Assembly: GCF_000378105.1 (NCBI RefSeq)
Contig: NZ_KB899254.1
Span: 1-64,000, forward strand
Source: Rubritalea marina DSM 17716
GTDB lineage: Bacteria; Verrucomicrobiota; Verrucomicrobiia; Verrucomicrobiales; Akkermansiaceae
Length of the DNA stretch: 64,000 nt
Direction of reading: 5' to 3'
In this document: in pieces, positions 25,203 through 38,440 of the stretch
Numbering within the stretch: the stretch's first letter is position 1
Layout of the letters: each line of letters starts with the position of its first letter
Position numbers and translations under genes: made by a program
Notes under the pieces: generated by a model
Databases searched by the model: none
What the model was told of the DNA's origin: nothing
What the model saw: only the letters and a program-made list of their open reading frames with translations

Positions 25203-26681
<1,479 letters not shown>

Positions 26682-26728
26682 TTATCAGTTAGTAAATTTA
26701 GTAAAAGTGATCAGAGAAGTGATCTGGA

Positions 26729-27625
26729 TTATTCCATTGCCTTCATGGCAGTGGTGATTTCGAGAAGCTCGGCGGTAATGGCTGCCTGACGAAGCTTGTT
26801 GAATTCTAGTGTGAGTGCGTCTTGCATGTCCTTCGCGTTGTCGGTAGCCGCTTTCATGGATACCATACGAGCTGAGTGCTCGGATGCGCGTGATTCTACG
26901 AGCATCTGATAGACTTGGAAGTTGACGTACTGTGGCAGGAGGGTGTCGAGCACCTTGGCCGGTGATGGCTCGAAGGTGTATTCTTTTTCAAGAGCCTTAT
27001 TTTTATCGGTTTCACCGACGGCTCCTTTACCGACGCCTTCGTAGTCTTGCTTTTCGCCGAGGCTTGTGGACTCGATAGGGAGCAGCTGAACCACTGTAGG
27101 AACCTGGAGCATGGTCGACTTGAAGTCGTTGAATGCAACCTTCACACAATCGTAATCACCACTGAGGAATTTCTCAGTGAGAAATTTGGAGATTGGGCGG
27201 GCCTCTGCAAATGGCACAGGGTCCTTCACTACGAAGTCGGCCTTGGTGTCATTGCCAGACTTAGCCAAGCTGATACGCAGTTTACGGCCAACAGTGACGT
27301 ATTCAGTCTCATTTGTATGTTCCTTAACAACCTCTTTCAAGAGATTGCCGTTGAAACCACCACAGAGACCTTTGTCTGCTGAGATGACGAGTGTGAGTGT
27401 CTTCTTGCCATCGCGCTTCTCAAGAAGTGGGTGAGCATTTTCATCCACATTTTCTTTGAGGTTTACGAGGACCTTGTTGAGCTCATCTGCGTAGGCACGA
27501 CCAGCGATTGCTTGGTTCTGAGCCTTTTTCATTTTGGCTGCAGCAACAAGCTCCATCGCGCGTGTGATCTGCGCTGTGTTTTTTACCGATTTGATTCGGC
27601 GACGAATGTCTCTCAGATTTGCCAT
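26729..27625 (-). CDS. atpG: ATP synthase F1 subunit gamma
   Basis: 298 residues. The conserved N-terminal ANLRDIRRRIKSVKNTAQIT and the C-terminal helix (MKAATDNAKDMQDALTLEFNKLRQA, split here only by wording) are present. The middle carries a roughly 30-residue charged insertion (around ESTSLGEKQDYEGVGKGA) relative to the E. coli protein. It rotates inside alpha3beta3. Confidence 0.97.
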   Translation of the reverse strand: MANLRDIRRRIKSVKNTAQITRAMELVAAAKMKKAQNQAIAGRAYADELNKVLVNLKENVDENAHPLLEKRDGKKTLTLVISADKGLCGGFNGNLLKEVVKEHTNETEYVTVGRKLRISLAKSGNDTKADFVVKDPVPFAEARPISKFLTEKFLSGDYDCVKVAFNDFKSTMLQVPTVVQLLPIESTSLGEKQDYEGVGKGAVGETDKNKALEKEYTFEPSPAKVLDTLLPQYVNFQVYQMLVESRASEHSARMVSMKAATDNAKDMQDALTLEFNKLRQAAITAELLEITTAMKAME

Positions 27626-27678
27626 TGTTTTTCTTAAGTAGCGTCTAGCGAGTAGCTATTAGCGAGTAGTTAGAAAGA

Positions 27679-27702
27679 CGGACGCCGCGCTTGCGGCGTC
27701 CT
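27679..27702 (-). promoter_or_regulatory. mRNA hairpin between atpA and atpG
   Basis: GGACGCCGC (27680-27688) pairs with GCGGCGTCC (27693-27701), a 9-bp GC-rich stem with a 4-base loop. No T-run follows, so it is more likely a processing or stabilising hairpin than a terminator. Confidence 0.7.
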
Positions 27703-27715
27703 CCTTAATTGGAAA

Positions 27716-29248
27716 TTACTTCCAAGATCCTTTGAAGTCTTCGATAGCCTGAGTGAGGCCAGACTTGACTGCGTCAGTGATCGCTTTGTCGTCAGCGATG
27801 AGCTGAAGAACGTCTGCTTTGCGCGTGTTGAGGAATTCCTCAAGTGCTGCTTGGCATTCGCCCATACGCTCCACGTCCACATCGTCGAAGTAGCCGTTCT
27901 GCATTGCGAAGAGAACAGCAACCTGGAGCTGCATGGACATTGGTGAGTATTGGTTTTGCTTGAAGAGCTCAACAATGCGCTGACCACGTTCGATTTTCGA
28001 CTTTGTCGCGTCATCGAGGTCAGAACCGAACTGGGCGAATGCCTGGAGTTCGCGGAACTGAGCAAGGTCAAGCTTGGTGGTACCAGCAACTTTCTTGGTG
28101 GCCTTTGTCTGAGCGGATGAACCCACACGAGATACGGAAAGACCCACGGAGATCGCTGGGCGGATACCTTGGTTGAAGAGGTCAGTTTCAAGGAAGATCT
28201 GACCATCAGTGATGGAGATCACGTTGGTTGGGATGTATGCGGATACGTCACCAGCCTGCGTTTCAATGATTGGAAGTGCTGTGAGTGAACCGCCACCTGC
28301 GTTCTCAGAGAGACGTGCAGAACGCTCAAGAAGACGGCTGTGAAGGTAGAAAACGTCACCAGGGTATGCCTCACGACCAGAAGGACGCTTAAGAATGAGG
28401 GAAACCTGACGGTATGCTACAGCGTGCTTGGAAAGGTCATCAAATACGATGATACAGTCGCGGCCTTTGTCCATGTGGTATTCAGCTACTGCACAACCGG
28501 TGTACGGTGCGAGGAACTGGTTGGCTGCGGAGTCAGATGCGGATGCGGAAACGATGGTCGTGTACTCCATGGCGCCAGCCTCTTCGAGAGTGGCGATGGT
28601 ACGAGCTACGTTGGACTGCTTCTGGCCGATTGCGACGTAGATACAGTACATTGGCTTGTAGCCAGGAAGTTTACCAGCTTCTGCAGCTTTGTTCTGGTTG
28701 GACTGAGAGATGATGGTGTCGATGGCGATGGTAGTCTTACCTGTCGCGCGGTCACCAATGATAAGCTCACGTTGGCCACGGCCGATGGGCACCATGGCGT
28801 CGATGGCCATAATACCAGTCTGCACTGGGACAGAAACGGACTTACGCTTAATGATACCAGGAGCGATTTTCTCAACTGGGTAGTCGACTGTGTCTGCGAC
28901 TTCGCCTTTGCCGTCGATCGGTGCACCGAGGGTGTCGATCACGCGACCAAGAAGGTTTTCACCAACTGGTACAGAAAGGAGTTCACCTGTGCACTTACAC
29001 TCATCACCAGCTTTGAGGTCGCGGTAGTCACCGAGGAGAACCACACCGACTTCACCTTCTTCAAGGTTGAGTGCGAGACCGGTAATTCCGCCTGGGAATG
29101 AGATCATTTCGTTGAGTTGAACGTCGCTGAGACCTTCTACTTTTGCGACACCGTCACCGATTTCACGGATGGTACCTACATTGCTTTTACCGACGGATGT
29201 CGATACGTTTGCGAGCTCTTGTTCGAGTTCCTGAAGAATGCTGCTCAT
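27716..29248 (-). CDS. atpA: ATP synthase F1 subunit alpha
   Basis: 510 residues. Walker A is [14 protein letters not shown], with the [18 protein letters not shown] strand and the [21 protein letters not shown] block intact. The C-terminal domain is of normal length. It binds nucleotide non-catalytically in the hexamer. Confidence 0.98.
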
Positions 29249-29311
29249 GGCTTACTTATTGGTTAGATTGGTTAAATTACCCTAGTGTGGGATTCGTTTA
29301 TTTGGATTTGG

Positions 29312-29704
29312 TTAAAACGCATTGGCGATGTTTTCGAGGCGGCTCTTGATGGTGCCGTCCCAAACGTCATCACCCTTGCGGATGCGAATTCCACCCAAGA
29401 GGGCAGAGTTGACTCGGTATTCGAATGTGAGGTCGTCGCCGAACTTGGCTGTGAGTTTGGTCACGATGCCTTGTTTGGTGGTGGTATCGAGTTCTGCAGC
29501 GCTATCCACGGTGACGTGTTTGGCTGCGAGGTCGATTTCAAGCAAGCGCTTGAGAGTGACCAAGATTCCACGGAAGTTGCGCGGCTTACGTTCTGCAATT
29601 GTTTTAACAACTTTGCTGAACTTGGCTTCGTCCACTTTGCCGTCTGCTTTGCAGAGGTTGTAAAGTCGGCGTGCAGCTGCTGCGGCGTCTTTAGATACTT
29701 TCAT
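29312..29704 (-). CDS. atpH: ATP synthase F1 subunit delta (short)
   Basis: 130 residues, about 45 shorter than the E. coli protein. The C-terminal part shows the conserved VNSALLGGIRIRKGDDVWDGTIKSRLENI-type end (quoted in part). The N-terminal six-helix domain is reduced. It joins the peripheral stalk to F1. It lies between atpF and atpA, as usual. Confidence 0.88.
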   Translation of the reverse strand: MKVSKDAAAAARRLYNLCKADGKVDEAKFSKVVKTIAERKPRNFRGILVTLKRLLEIDLAAKHVTVDSAAELDTTTKQGIVTKLTAKFGDDLTFEYRVNSALLGGIRIRKGDDVWDGTIKSRLENIANAF

Positions 29705-29749
29705 GGTTTGATAGGTTGGCGATCGACGTTCAAAAAGTGTTTGGTGAGA

Positions 29750-30292
29750 TTAGCCCTCGACGCTTGCGAGTGCTTCCTGGTTGATGCGCTTGTTGTCTTC
29801 TTCAGTGAGCACCTTGCCTGTGACAGCAGCGGTGGTTGAAGCAACGAGCTTGCCGAAGTCCTGCTTGAGCTCAGTGACCATTTGTTCGCGCTCAGCTTTT
29901 GCGTTAGCTTCAGCTTTAGCGAGGATGTCCTGTGCTTTGTTGATTGCTTCCTGTGTCTTCTCTTCTGAGAGGGCAGCAGCGCTTTCTTTAGCTTCTTCGA
30001 TGAGGCGTTGTGCATCAGCATTGGCTTTCTCAAGAGCAGCTGCGGTGCGCTCTTCGGAGTCGGCCAATTGGGTCTCGATGCGCTTTAGCTTTTCTTCACC
30101 TTCTGCAATACGCTTTTTGCGCTGTTCAAGCATTGCGGTGATTGGGCCAAAGGCAAACTTCTTAAGAACAAAGATCACGATAGCGAAGTTGATAAGCTGG
30201 AACGTGAAAAGCTTCCAGTTTACGCCGAAAGTGTCGAGTAGGTTAGCGTCGGCTGCAACGTCTGCACCTGCTGCTGCAAGAATTGTGATCAT
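29750..30292 (-). CDS. atpF: ATP synthase Fo subunit b
   Basis: 180 residues. A single N-terminal membrane span (FTFQLINFAIVIFVLKKFAF) is followed by a long, alanine- and glutamate-rich coiled coil (about residues 55-160), the peripheral stalk. Ahead of the span is a short periplasmic segment. There is only one b-type gene in the operon, so the stalk should be a homodimer. Confidence 0.95.
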   Translation of the reverse strand: MITILAAAGADVAADANLLDTFGVNWKLFTFQLINFAIVIFVLKKFAFGPITAMLEQRKKRIAEGEEKLKRIETQLADSEERTAAALEKANADAQRLIEEAKESAAALSEEKTQEAINKAQDILAKAEANAKAEREQMVTELKQDFGKLVASTTAAVTGKVLTEEDNKRINQEALASVEG

Positions 30293-30669: not shown

Positions 30670-31551
30670 TTAGTGTGCGTGCTCGTCGTCGTGGTCGTCG
30701 TGCTCACAGATGAGCTTGAGGAATACCGAGCAAAGGAGGGTGAATACGAGAGCTTGAACGCCACCCACAAGAAGCTCCATGAAGTAGAATGGAAGAGAGG
30801 TGAGCCAGCCGAACCAGCTTCCACCGATGAACATCAAGACTTCAAGTGTTTGCTCACCACCGTAGATGTTGCCGAAGAGTCGGAAGGAAAGTGCTACTGG
30901 GCGGATCGCAATGGAGACGATTTCAAGCACGCCTACCACGCCGAAGATGAAGATCATCAATACAGCCATGAGGCCATTAAATTTGCCTTTGGGGGCGAAG
31001 ATGTGAGCGAGGAATCCCTTGAGTCCGTTCTCTTGGATGGCCCAAACGAACCAAAGTACGGCGAATGTGAATGCCATGGCTGCGGTCATGTTGACGTCTG
31101 CGTTTCCGCCGCGCATCAATGGTTCTGCAAAGTGACCATGTGAATCCATTCCCCAACCTAGGGTGCCTACACCTGGAAGGAGTCCGAGGTAGTTGGTGAG
31201 GATGATGAGAAGGAAAGTAGAGCCGAAGAACCAGAAGGTCTTCTTCACAAGGTGGTCACCAAGGATGCCGCCAAAGAAGTTGTAAAGGGACTCGATCACA
31301 AATTCAGCGAAGTTTTGTACTCCAGCAGGGACCACGGTGATTTTCTTGGCAGCGATGCGGCAAAAGAGGGTGATGAGAGCAACCGCAATCCAGACACTCA
31401 CGGTGGAGTTAGAGATGAACCCTGAGTCACGAAGCTCAATGGCTGTCTTTGGGAGAACTGGAGCTTCTCCGCCCGCTGCGCCTGCTAGGGAAGCGAGACC
31501 AAGGCTGGTGCCGAGGATAGCGAGGGTGCTGAAAAATGATTTGTTAGTCAT
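30670..31551 (-). CDS. atpB: ATP synthase Fo subunit a
   Basis: 293 residues, with an N-terminal signal-like hydrophobic segment (FFSTLAILGTSLGLASLAGA) and at least five further spans. The essential arginine lies in RPVALSFRLFGNIYGGE. The C-terminus is an acidic, histidine-rich tail (CEHDDHDDEHAH), not usual in E. coli-type subunits. It is the first cistron; no atpI is found upstream. Confidence 0.97.
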   Translation of the reverse strand: MTNKSFFSTLAILGTSLGLASLAGAAGGEAPVLPKTAIELRDSGFISNSTVSVWIAVALITLFCRIAAKKITVVPAGVQNFAEFVIESLYNFFGGILGDHLVKKTFWFFGSTFLLIILTNYLGLLPGVGTLGWGMDSHGHFAEPLMRGGNADVNMTAAMAFTFAVLWFVWAIQENGLKGFLAHIFAPKGKFNGLMAVLMIFIFGVVGVLEIVSIAIRPVALSFRLFGNIYGGEQTLEVLMFIGGSWFGWLTSLPFYFMELLVGGVQALVFTLLCSVFLKLICEHDDHDDEHAH

Positions 31552-31969
31552 GAGATTAGGTTGCCGGTTCGGCTAGCGCCATGTGCAATAACCTCCAAGC
31601 AACTATCGAGCAAGCCTATTTGTGAAAATTTTCACAAACTATCTACCCCTTCGGTGTAACTTGCTCAGGAGGAGTTTGTCACCCTCTGTTTCCGGCTTTC
31701 TCAGCGATGTCTGTATATCGTTAGAATTTAACTGTTCCGTAGTAAAATTGAGGGGCTTAATCTCTTGGTGAGATCTGTATGATAGCTGAGGTGCTTGTGG
31801 CCCAAGTGTTAGTGCGTAAATTTGTTAGTTTGGACTCCTAATCTAACGTTTTAGGAACATGAAATGTTAGCGCATTGATGGCAATTCCCGTGAATCCCTT
31901 GAGGAATATAGAGTTTTTCGCTTTTTTTACCTTTACAAGGTCGTGGATATCCGTGAAGAATGTAGCGCT
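31552..31969. other. Divergent promoter region of the atp operon and the HU gene
   Basis: About 418 bp without a gene. It holds the CRP-like palindrome (31619-31638) and an imperfect inverted repeat (CTAACGTTT near 31843 and AAATGTTAG near 31862). No atpI and no small open frame of note. Confidence 0.5.
31619..31638. promoter_or_regulatory. CRP/FNR-like palindrome upstream of the atp operon
   Basis: TTTGTGAAAATTTTCACAAA is a perfect 20-bp palindrome that contains TGTGA-N6-TCACA, the exact consensus spacing of CRP-family operators. It is centred about 77 bp upstream of the atpB start codon, in the region shared with the divergent HU gene. Binding is inferred from the motif only. Confidence 0.7.
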
Positions 31970-32245
31970 ATGAATAAAGCTGAACTTGTAGAAGCAATCC
32001 AAAACAACCTCGGGAAAGATGCAACCAAGCGCCTCGCTGAAGACGCACTTTCTGCTGTGCTCACCTCCATCACGGAAGGTGTAAAGAAAGACGGCAAAGT
32101 CCAACTTATTGGCTTTGGTACTTTCGAAGTAAAGACTCGCGCTGCGCGTAAGGGTCGCAACCCTAAGACTGGTGAAGAAATGCAGATCAAAGCCTCCAAG
32201 ACTGTTGGCTTTAAGGCATCTTCATCCCTCAAAGGTTCCCTCTAA
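31970..32245 (+). CDS. HU family DNA-binding protein
   Basis: 91 residues: the opening MNKAELVEAI, the VQLIGFGTFEVKTRAARKGR arm region, and the RNPKTGEEMQI stretch typical of HU. It bends and packs DNA as a dimer. ATG 31970 gives the standard length; an upstream GTG/ATG frame at 31943 would add nine residues. A terminator follows closely. Confidence 0.95.
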   Translation: MNKAELVEAIQNNLGKDATKRLAEDALSAVLTSITEGVKKDGKVQLIGFGTFEVKTRAARKGRNPKTGEEMQIKASKTVGFKASSSLKGSL

Positions 32246-36142: not shown

Positions 36143-38440
36143 ATGACTGAATTTAGTAAGAGATTGATGCAGCGCAACACGCCGGCCAGGGTGCACTTGA
36201 TTGGTGTGGCTGGTTCTGGAATGAGTGGGCTTGCCACGTTGCTTTTGGAGATGGGGCATGCGGTGAGTGGATGTGATCGCGTGACGAGTTCCGAGACCGA
36301 ACGCCTTCAGCGTGCGGGTTTGCAGTTTTCTAGCCCGCACAATGCCCTGTCGGTACAGGATGCGGAAGTGGTGGTCTATTCTTCAGCGATTCGTTCTGAA
36401 AATGTGGCTCTAGCTGCTGCCAGAGAGTTGGGCATTCCTACGATTCGTCGCGCTGAGTGCCTTGCGGCGATTTTGGCGACCAAGGATGGCGTGGTCATTT
36501 CTGGTACGCACGGAAAGACAACGACCTCTGCAATGAGTGCGCACTTGTTGCGTCAGGGGATTGAACAACCTTCACATTATGTGGGGGCTGAGATTCCAGT
36601 GCTGGGTTGCAATGCACACTGGGATGAGTCTGGAACGGTCATGGTTGCGGAGGGTGATGAGAGTGATGGCACACTCGTTCTCTATGCTCCAGAGCACAGT
36701 ATCGTCCTCAATGTGGAAGAGGAGCACCTAGATTTTTACTCAGGCATCGAGCAAATCAAAGAGGTGTTTACCACCTTGCTGGATAAGACATCTGGTTCAA
36801 TCATTTACTGTGGTGAGTGCCCTACTGCTACGGAGCTTTGTGCGTCACGCAGGGGAGCGATCTCGTATGGTTGGAATGATGCCGACTACGTCGCTGAAGA
36901 GGTGGTGGAGCAAGGCGGGCGCGTGAGTTTTAATGTCGTGGTGCAGGGGGAATTCCTGGGCCGTGTGGAGCTTGGGGTGCCAGGTAGGCATAATGTGCTG
37001 AATGCCATGGCCGCGATCGCGCTGGCGCGTGCTTGTGGTGTGAATATGGATGGTATCACTCGGGCCTTGGCGACCTTTGCAGGAGCGAAACGTCGCTTTG
37101 AGACCAAATACGTCAGTGATCAATTCCGCATCATCGATGACTATGGCCACCACCCGACTGAATTGGCGGCTACTTTGCAGACCGCGCGCTCTCTGCAGCC
37201 TAAGCGTCTGTTGGTGTTATTTCAGCCGCATCGATTCAGCCGCACGCAAAAGCTTGCTGCTGAATTTGGGGATGCTTTGCAACTGGCGGATCGAGTTTTT
37301 GTGACTGATGTTTACGCGGCGTCTGAGTCCCCAATCGAGGGCGTGGGCGGACAGACAATTGTCGATGCTGTGCATGCCGCTGGCGCAACCAAAGCAGAAT
37401 TTGTTGGCGCTGTGCCACAGGCGCATTACGTGGTGGGCAATGCGCTTAAAGAAGGTGATGTGTTGATCACTCTGGGAGCTGGCAATGTCCACGAAGCGGG
37501 TACGAAAATCGCGAGAGATCTGACACTGCTAGAATCATTTAATCTGGGGTTTTCGGCGGATTCTCTGGTGGCCCGCCTCTACGAACCGATGCGTAAACAC
37601 AGCACGATGTTGGTGGGTGGGCCGGCTCAGATTTGGCTAGAGCCTGGGACGACGGAGGTCTTTGCCCATGTGGTTAGCTTTTGTCGTGAGCGCGGGATCC
37701 CGCTGCGAGTGGTCGGCAGAGGCTCTAACTTGTTAGTCCGCGATGGGGGCATTCGCGGTGTGGTGATGCATCCTACTCGTGGGGAATTTGGAGAGGTCCG
37801 CGTGGAGGGAGATGTGATTCACGCTGGAGCTGGAGTGCGCTTCAAGAAATTGGCCATGGCTGCGCAGAAGGCCGGCCTATCAGGTTTTGAGTGGATGGAG
37901 GGCATTCCCGGGAATGTGGGTGGTGGCATGCGGATGAATGCTGGTGCCATGGGTACAGAGACCTTTGATCAGGTGGTGACCATGAAGTTGCTGATGGAAG
38001 ATGGCGAGGTGCGTGAGCTGCGCGGCGATGAGATCGAATCACACTACCGCAATGTGCCAACTCTACGCCTCAACTATGTCCTTTCTGTTTGCTTTAAAGG
38101 GGTGCCAGCCCCAGCTGAAGAGATTGCTGAGAAGATGGAGGAGTCCATGCAGAAGCGTCGTCGAAGCCAGCCCCTCGCCGCTAGCGCTGGTTGTATTTTC
38201 AAGAATCCAGAGGAGATGCCGGCCGGTATGTTAGTGGACCGATTGGGTTTGAAAGAATCCTCCATTGGCAATGCCATGGTTTCTACGGAACATGGCAATT
38301 TTATCATCAATACTGGCAAAGCCACTGCTACAGAGGTGTTGGATTTGATTAAAACAATTCGAAAGAAAGCTCATGAGGAGATGGGGATCCAGCTAGATAC
38401 CGAGGTGCAAATCATCGGTGAAGATGAAGCCCAATTCTAG
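36143..38440 (+). CDS. murC/murB: Fused UDP-N-acetylmuramate-alanine ligase / UDP-N-acetylenolpyruvoylglucosamine reductase
   Basis: 765 residues. Residues 1 to about 460 are MurC: IGVAGSGMSGLATLLLEMGH, the P-loop GTHGKTTT (121-128), EGDESDG and LFQPHRFSRT. From about 480 on is MurB: RGSNLLVRDGGIRGVV FAD-binding loop, GIPGNVGGGMRMNAGAMG and the SAGCIFKNP block with the catalytic Ser. The fusion couples the step that makes UDP-MurNAc (MurB) with alanine addition (MurC). It lies between murG and ddl. Confidence 0.95.
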   Translation: MTEFSKRLMQRNTPARVHLIGVAGSGMSGLATLLLEMGHAVSGCDRVTSSETERLQRAGLQFSSPHNALSVQDAEVVVYSSAIRSENVALAAARELGIPTIRRAECLAAILATKDGVVISGTHGKTTTSAMSAHLLRQGIEQPSHYVGAEIPVLGCNAHWDESGTVMVAEGDESDGTLVLYAPEHSIVLNVEEEHLDFYSGIEQIKEVFTTLLDKTSGSIIYCGECPTATELCASRRGAISYGWNDADYVAEEVVEQGGRVSFNVVVQGEFLGRVELGVPGRHNVLNAMAAIALARACGVNMDGITRALATFAGAKRRFETKYVSDQFRIIDDYGHHPTELAATLQTARSLQPKRLLVLFQPHRFSRTQKLAAEFGDALQLADRVFVTDVYAASESPIEGVGGQTIVDAVHAAGATKAEFVGAVPQAHYVVGNALKEGDVLITLGAGNVHEAGTKIARDLTLLESFNLGFSADSLVARLYEPMRKHSTMLVGGPAQIWLEPGTTEVFAHVVSFCRERGIPLRVVGRGSNLLVRDGGIRGVVMHPTRGEFGEVRVEGDVIHAGAGVRFKKLAMAAQKAGLSGFEWMEGIPGNVGGGMRMNAGAMGTETFDQVVTMKLLMEDGEVRELRGDEIESHYRNVPTLRLNYVLSVCFKGVPAPAEEIAEKMEESMQKRRRSQPLAASAGCIFKNPEEMPAGMLVDRLGLKESSIGNAMVSTEHGNFIINTGKATATEVLDLIKTIRKKAHEEMGIQLDTEVQIIGEDEAQF

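Follow-up and report, generated by a model that had tools for sequence, protein, structure and literature searches.

A predicted Rex operator at the ATP synthase promoter of Rubritalea marina and other Verrucomicrobiota

Introduction

ATP synthase is commonly regarded as an enzyme that is little regulated at the level of transcription. In Desulfovibrio, an ATP synthase operon and Qrc, itself kin to alternative complex III, are among the targets of Rex. The CRP site of Escherichia coli has the form TGTGA-N6-TCACA. The operator consensus of the redox sensor Rex, TTGTGAAN4TTCACAA, is given in three publications (PMC2883068, PMC5355995, PMC5317091), and the consensus, the release of Rex by NADH and the control of atp, nuo and ndh2 are already on record in the available text of the literature (PMC5355995, PMC2883068, PMC8836258, PMC5317091, PMC13077300).

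The window considered here is the whole 64,000-nt stretch of Rubritalea marina DNA. It carries a palindrome before the atp operon that we read as an operator of Rex, an NADH/NAD+-sensing repressor, at the atp promoter, with a probability of about 0.9 judging from sequence comparison. The site, the rex gene, the conservation of the site, its co-occurrence with rex and its gene neighbourhood were computed and are described below.

Results and Discussion

The palindrome and the atp operon

The sequence at 31619–31638, TTTGTGAAAATTTTCACAAA, is a perfect 20-bp palindrome, identical to its own reverse complement. A first-pass annotation had described it as TGTGA-N6-TCACA with extended arms, located before the atp operon; sequence and coordinates are exact, and the palindrome does lie 67 bp upstream of the atpB ATG. 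A gap of 418 bp separates atpB from a divergent HU/IHF-like gene; the palindrome lies within it, 331 bp from the start of the HU/IHF-like gene. The core of the palindrome agrees with TTGTGAA-N4-TTCACAA in 14 of 14 fixed letters (0 mismatches). The features concerned are:

31620..31637, no strand (.): predicted Rex operator (ROP), TTGTGAA-AATT-TTCACAA, the core of the palindrome, equal to the published consensus
30670..31551, minus strand: atpB, F1Fo ATP synthase subunit a, first gene of the atp operon; best NCBIfam match under its cut-off (TIGR01131, 96.5 bits vs 102.6)
29750–30292, minus strand: atpF, ORF named by recognition of its translation
29312–29704, minus strand: atpH, ORF named by recognition of its translation
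27716–29248, minus strand: atpA, ORF named by recognition of its translation
26729–27625, minus strand: atpG, ORF named by recognition of its translation
25203–26669, minus strand: atpD, ORF named by recognition of its translation
ATG at 31970, plus strand: HU/IHF-like gene; NCBIfam matches under cut-off

The genes after atpB (25203..30292, minus strand) were named from ORFs and by eye, without a family search, and atpE and atpC are outside this list. Elsewhere in the window, a 765-aa ORF (36143–38440, plus strand) reads as a MurC–MurB fusion and sits inside a mur/fts cluster, with murG before it and ddl, ftsQ and ftsA after it, all by recognition only.

Chance is a poor explanation of the palindrome. 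It is the single perfect 20-bp palindrome in the window, against 0.05 expected from base composition, and the TGTGA-N6-TCACA at 31621–31636 is the sole 0-mismatch match there. For TTGTGAA-N4-TTCACAA, base composition predicts 0.0002 occurrences per window and 0.008 per 3.01 Mb; the assembly (3.01 Mb, 30 contigs, 95.5% complete) contains two perfect copies and none of the reversed control pattern. Weaker matches to TGTGAN6TCACA carry little meaning, since 32 with at most two mismatches are found in the window and 32.3 are expected. Genome-wide matches to the Rex consensus with at most three mismatches (149, vs 88 for the reversed control) were likewise set aside. Two Rex-type sites with one mismatch are found in the genome, one within a 638-aa ORF (L006), the other overlapping the start of a 403-aa ORF (L005).

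The Rex protein of R. marina

The consensus sequences of CRP and Rex overlap, so the genome was searched for the regulator. The assembly holds one PF06971 match over the cut-off, and this is a Rex protein:

L001:1489–2112 (G000:C2, ~179.7 kb), plus strand: rex, 207 aa, with PF06971, PF02629, NCBIfam and PDB matches

The protein consists of an N-terminal winged-helix domain (PF06971, 5e-18) and an NAD-binding Rossmann (CoA_binding) domain (PF02629, 5e-15). Six of the nine NCBIfam Rex models listed for it are over cut-off, and its eight PDB sequence matches (1e-43 to 1e-35) are all Rex entries, one carrying the name AT-rich DNA-binding protein. Identity to Thermotoga maritima Rex extends to 80 of 199 aligned residues. 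For the T. maritima protein, 12 DNA-contacting residues are named in the available text, three of which are excepted from high conservation (PMC8836258). Ten of the 12 contacts, including Arg48 and Lys49, are identical in the R. marina protein; the two that differ, Glu34 (Thr) and Ser52 (Gly), are both among the three exceptions of that paper (PMC8836258).

Conservation of the operator and co-occurrence with rex

The best 80 of 126 atpB loci in a genome scan were compared; all bear Verrucomicrobiota titles, except two titled only ‘bacterium’. Seventy-eight were testable, L043 and L071 being left out for too little upstream DNA. In 53 of the 78 loci, the 900 bp before the start of the atpB match contain an operator with at most two mismatches: 26 operators are perfect, 17 have one mismatch and 10 have two. 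The reversed control pattern is found at one locus. A single match of this quality to the operator lies elsewhere in the 80 loci, outside these 900-bp upstream stretches (L092). Positions 1–7 and 12–16 of the 53 sites are near-invariant (52 or 53 of 53 each), A7 and T12, which CRP sites leave free, being kept in every one. It is the two final bases that vary, A17 being kept in 33 sites and A18 in 37. In the cultured Persicirhabdus sediminis KCTC 22039 (L020), the site upstream of atpB is perfect and stands 109 bp from the start of the atpB match. On the far side of the operator the neighbour varies among the 17 atpB neighbourhoods compared (argininosuccinate lyase in five, HU in three), and atpB is constant.

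The presence of the site tracks that of rex, sought as PF06971 in the genomes of all 80 loci and counted on the 78 testable ones. Both are found in 47, the site only in six, rex only in four and neither in 21 (Fisher p 4e-10, a value that overstates independence, as p-values do here, since the genomes share ancestry). The six genomes with a site and no rex are drafts. In four genomes, rex occurs without a recognisable site before atpB (L056, titled Pedosphaera sp., isolate ALOHA; L058; L063; L074); these may have a drifted site or other Rex targets. A second panel of 30 genomes, R. marina and 29 relatives, has both in 24, the site only in three, rex only in none and neither in three; the three site-only genomes are 72–83% complete, and those with neither 69, 90 and 99%. 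The suggestion of the first-pass annotation that ATP synthase is linked to a global signal thus gains support from the Rex consensus, the rex gene and the co-occurrence of site and rex.

Predicted promoter and mode of action

Scanning for consensus promoters gave no hit on the atp strand, so the -35 and -10 hexamers given here are predicted from conservation among relatives:

31608..31613, minus strand: predicted -35 hexamer TTGCTC, 6 nt downstream of the operator, TTG conserved in relatives
31585..31590, minus strand: predicted -10 hexamer TATTGC, separated from the -35 by a 17-bp spacer, TA conserved in relatives
31578, minus strand: putative transcription start region, 7 nt past the predicted -10 and deduced from it only; leader of about 27 nt

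In all 17 atp promoters compared, which come from genus to order relatives, a TTG begins 5–8 nt past the operator (background 6%), and 16 of these promoters have TA at the -10 place with a spacer of 16–18. The same TTG is present at 16/16 nuoD, 3/3 nuoB and 4/5 ndh promoters. A -10 is clear at atp (16/17) and nuoB (3/3), not at nuoD (3/16) or ndh (2/5). The actA promoters appear to be built in another way: one of 16 has the TTG, and in ten of 16 a TAnAR-like -10 directly follows the operator, so that the left arm of the operator (TTGTGA) may itself be the -35. In a wider set, the 53 named loci and R. marina, the first TTG stands at offset 5–7 in just 21 of 54, and 22 have none within 27 nt; the operator-then-TTG geometry is therefore not phylum-wide.

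On the predicted promoter, the centre of the atp operator would be at about -50. We infer binding by Rex, a response to NADH, the sign of regulation and the transcription start from these comparisons. A Rex dimer would occupy 31620–31637 when NAD+ dominates and NADH is scarce. With its operator centred near -50 and ending 6 nt before the predicted -35, bound Rex would obstruct RNA polymerase at this promoter, and atp would be repressed. A Rex footprint of 27–29 nt, as given in the available text on Streptomyces avermitilis (PMC5355995), would from this position reach the -35. When NADH accumulates, through shortage of oxygen or another acceptor or through a surplus of reductant, it would take Rex off the DNA, and expression of ATP synthase would rise together with that of the NDH-2-like gene described below. 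Repression by hindrance is most likely the mode of action at atp.

That Rex binds here and activates atp, or acts as a modest brake, is unlikely. The geometry speaks for it to some degree: at the atp and nuo promoters the operator would lie near -50, just upstream of the -35, and the conserved TTG follows it at atp, nuoD, nuoB and most ndh promoters and at one actA promoter. Against it, Rex is described as a repressor in the available text of five papers (PMC5355995, PMC8836258, PMC5317091, PMC13077300, PMC2883068), and the footprint would extend to the predicted -35.

CRP/FNR and other alternatives

The first-pass annotation had taken the palindrome for a CRP/FNR site, at which an activator or repressor of that family would control atp. 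The 16-bp CRP consensus is indeed matched perfectly, in a sequence that the Rex consensus overlaps; the identity of the regulator did not stand. The search for a CRP/FNR homologue, named beforehand as the refuting test, found none in the 95.5% complete assembly: neither PF00325 nor PF00027 has a match in it, vs matches in nine and ten of 14 control genomes, respectively. The single PF13545 (HTH_Crp_2) match in the genome is under the cut-off, and it was rejected as a CRP-type protein, carrying both domains of DtxR-type iron-dependent repressors. In relatives, the CRP family was sought as PF00325 in 50 of the 80 genomes; six have a match, all barely over the cut-off (21.8–26.5 bits vs 21), and these are not associated with the site (five of 32 genomes with it, one of 18 without; p 0.40, subject to the shared ancestry mentioned above). 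The 53 sites never vary at positions 7 and 12, where a CRP site may carry any base. With no regulator found in the assembly and no co-occurrence of PF00325 with the site in the 50 relatives, the CRP/FNR reading is rejected as highly improbable.

Service to the HU-like gene, with which the palindrome shares the 418-bp gap, or a structural role (hairpin, cruciform) unrelated to atp, has very little probability: the HU-like start is 331 bp away and the divergent neighbour changes across relatives as atpB stays, and the palindrome is without a loop, lies upstream of the predicted start and tracks rex.

A second predicted operator and the proposed regulon in R. marina

The first-pass annotation had proposed looking for further copies of the site. 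One more perfect 18-bp copy exists, on contig 9, 43 bp before the gene of a 429-aa pyridine-nucleotide-disulphide oxidoreductase. We call this protein NDH-2-like, a soft name: its NDH2_C match reaches 27.3 bits vs a cut-off of 27.7, and none of the 25 NCBIfam matches listed is over cut-off. NDH-2 is a Rex target in S. avermitilis according to the available text (PMC5355995) and in B. subtilis by the title of a reference in another paper (PMC13077300).

No operator was found upstream of the nuoD and actA genes of R. marina, the best matches having five and six mismatches, respectively. The wider Rex regulon, seen in relatives, is therefore not valid in this genome, and a regulon of the atp operon and the NDH-2-like gene only is proposed. 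The regions at actA and nuoD that lack an operator are G000:C6:138000–142500 (L258, L284) and G000:C3:71778–73720 (L257, L282); unlike these, sampled relatives in the genus have perfect operators before actA and nuoD. A lysine/alanine-rich, histone-like ORF, recognised by eye, is located between the divergent gene and nuoD in R. marina.

The proposed regulon in relatives

In the second panel, 118 sites are perfect, and the reversed control pattern is absent. R. marina apart, 116 of these sites remain; for 73 of them, in 21 genomes and chosen as those listed with their positions, the neighbourhood was examined by tblastn, and each site was assigned the closest gene within 350 bp that points away from it. 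Seventy-two of the 73 are at most 350 bp (the largest distance being 322 bp) from genes of complex I, NDH-2, alternative complex III, ATP synthase or polyprenyl synthetase, on a list of gene families drawn up after the neighbours were seen and with the ActA, NuoB and polyprenyl synthetase queries taken from the same loci. The nearest gene is atpB at 21 sites, actA at 18, nuoD at 18, nuoB at five, nuoG, NDH-2 and polyprenyl synthetase at three each and nuoE at one; one site has none. This last site (L215) is followed by a truncated 26-residue start at the end of the stretch, which matches NuoD at 56% identity (27 aligned positions). Among the atpB assignments, that of L248 is weak (E 2e-5). The families used are PF00346 for nuoD, PF01058 for nuoB, PF01257 for nuoE and PF00348 for polyprenyl synthetase; nuoG was also identified. 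ActA of a relative and ActB of R. marina match subunits A and B of solved alternative complex III structures (6btm by name; also 6f0k). In seven of the 73 neighbourhoods the site falls inside an ORF, 80 aa or longer, that was called mechanically; these ORFs may be spurious.

Two arrangements may be mentioned. A single perfect operator stands between divergent nuoD and NDH-2 genes (L253:2507–2524) and apparently serves both NADH dehydrogenases. In a genome of the same family, two perfect operators are placed in tandem before actA, their starts 23 bp apart (L232:2471–2511).

Given the operators at complex I, alternative complex III and polyprenyl synthetase besides ATP synthase, Rex in the relatives looks like a regulator of oxidative phosphorylation as a whole chain. 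On balance we lean towards a broader, joint reading: in Verrucomicrobiota, Rex would be devoted to controlling the whole chain, from complex I, NDH-2 and alternative complex III to ATP synthase and the synthesis of the quinone tail, with hardly any perfect-site targets besides; it would use two operator–promoter geometries, abutting the -35 at atp and nuo and inside the core promoter at act; and its regulon would shrink by operator loss, R. marina keeping only ATP synthase and NDH-2 under Rex.

Comparison with known Rex systems

A redox sensor operator is conserved at the ATP synthase promoter of many Verrucomicrobiota, in step with the gene of the sensor. In the wiring that this implies, NADH would act through Rex on ATP synthase and NADH dehydrogenase, and the machinery that makes ATP would be coupled to the cellular redox state. 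The case also warns that a TGTGA-N6-TCACA palindrome alone does not prove a CRP site; the E. coli site needs a cyclic-nucleotide-binding regulator, not found in the R. marina assembly. A limited literature search, with Ravcheev 2012 outside its scope, found no report on Rex in Verrucomicrobiota, Akkermansia included, in the text available. Within these bounds, two things appear to be new: the predicted Rex operator at atp in Verrucomicrobiota, and the targeting of alternative complex III in relatives, on which no report was found.

The R. marina site fits the Staphylococcus aureus Rex operator, TTGTGAAW4TTCACAA, W4 included (PMC2883068). The S. aureus targets differ, belonging to anaerobic metabolism, with fermentation and nitrate respiration (PMC5355995, available text), and the term ATP synthase is absent from the S. 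aureus paper as far as its available text goes (PMC2883068). Desulfovibrio Rex also co-regulates energy-conservation genes; its targets named in the available text, Rnf and sulfate-reduction genes, are different, and the phylum is another (PMC4215793).

The closest likeness is to S. avermitilis, where the operator consensus is TTGTGAANNNNTTCACAA, the atp operon, nuo and ndh2 are under Rex control, and the site lies in the promoter (PMC5355995, available text). Control of atp of this kind had been called unusual in the first-pass annotation, and Rex at the S. avermitilis atp operon is a precedent (PMC5355995). The atp operator there, TTGTGATACGGTTCACGA, is part of a stretch protected between -50 and -22, the -35 included (PMC5355995); unlike it, the R. 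marina operator is perfect, and its whole length would lie upstream of the predicted -35. At the 73 sites, cyd, hem and hppA, all three outside our query set, are never the nearest assigned gene. Since Rex control of atp is already published for S. avermitilis (PMC5355995), the R. marina site joins a known type of control, to which, unlike the S. avermitilis regulon, its relatives in Verrucomicrobiota add alternative complex III.
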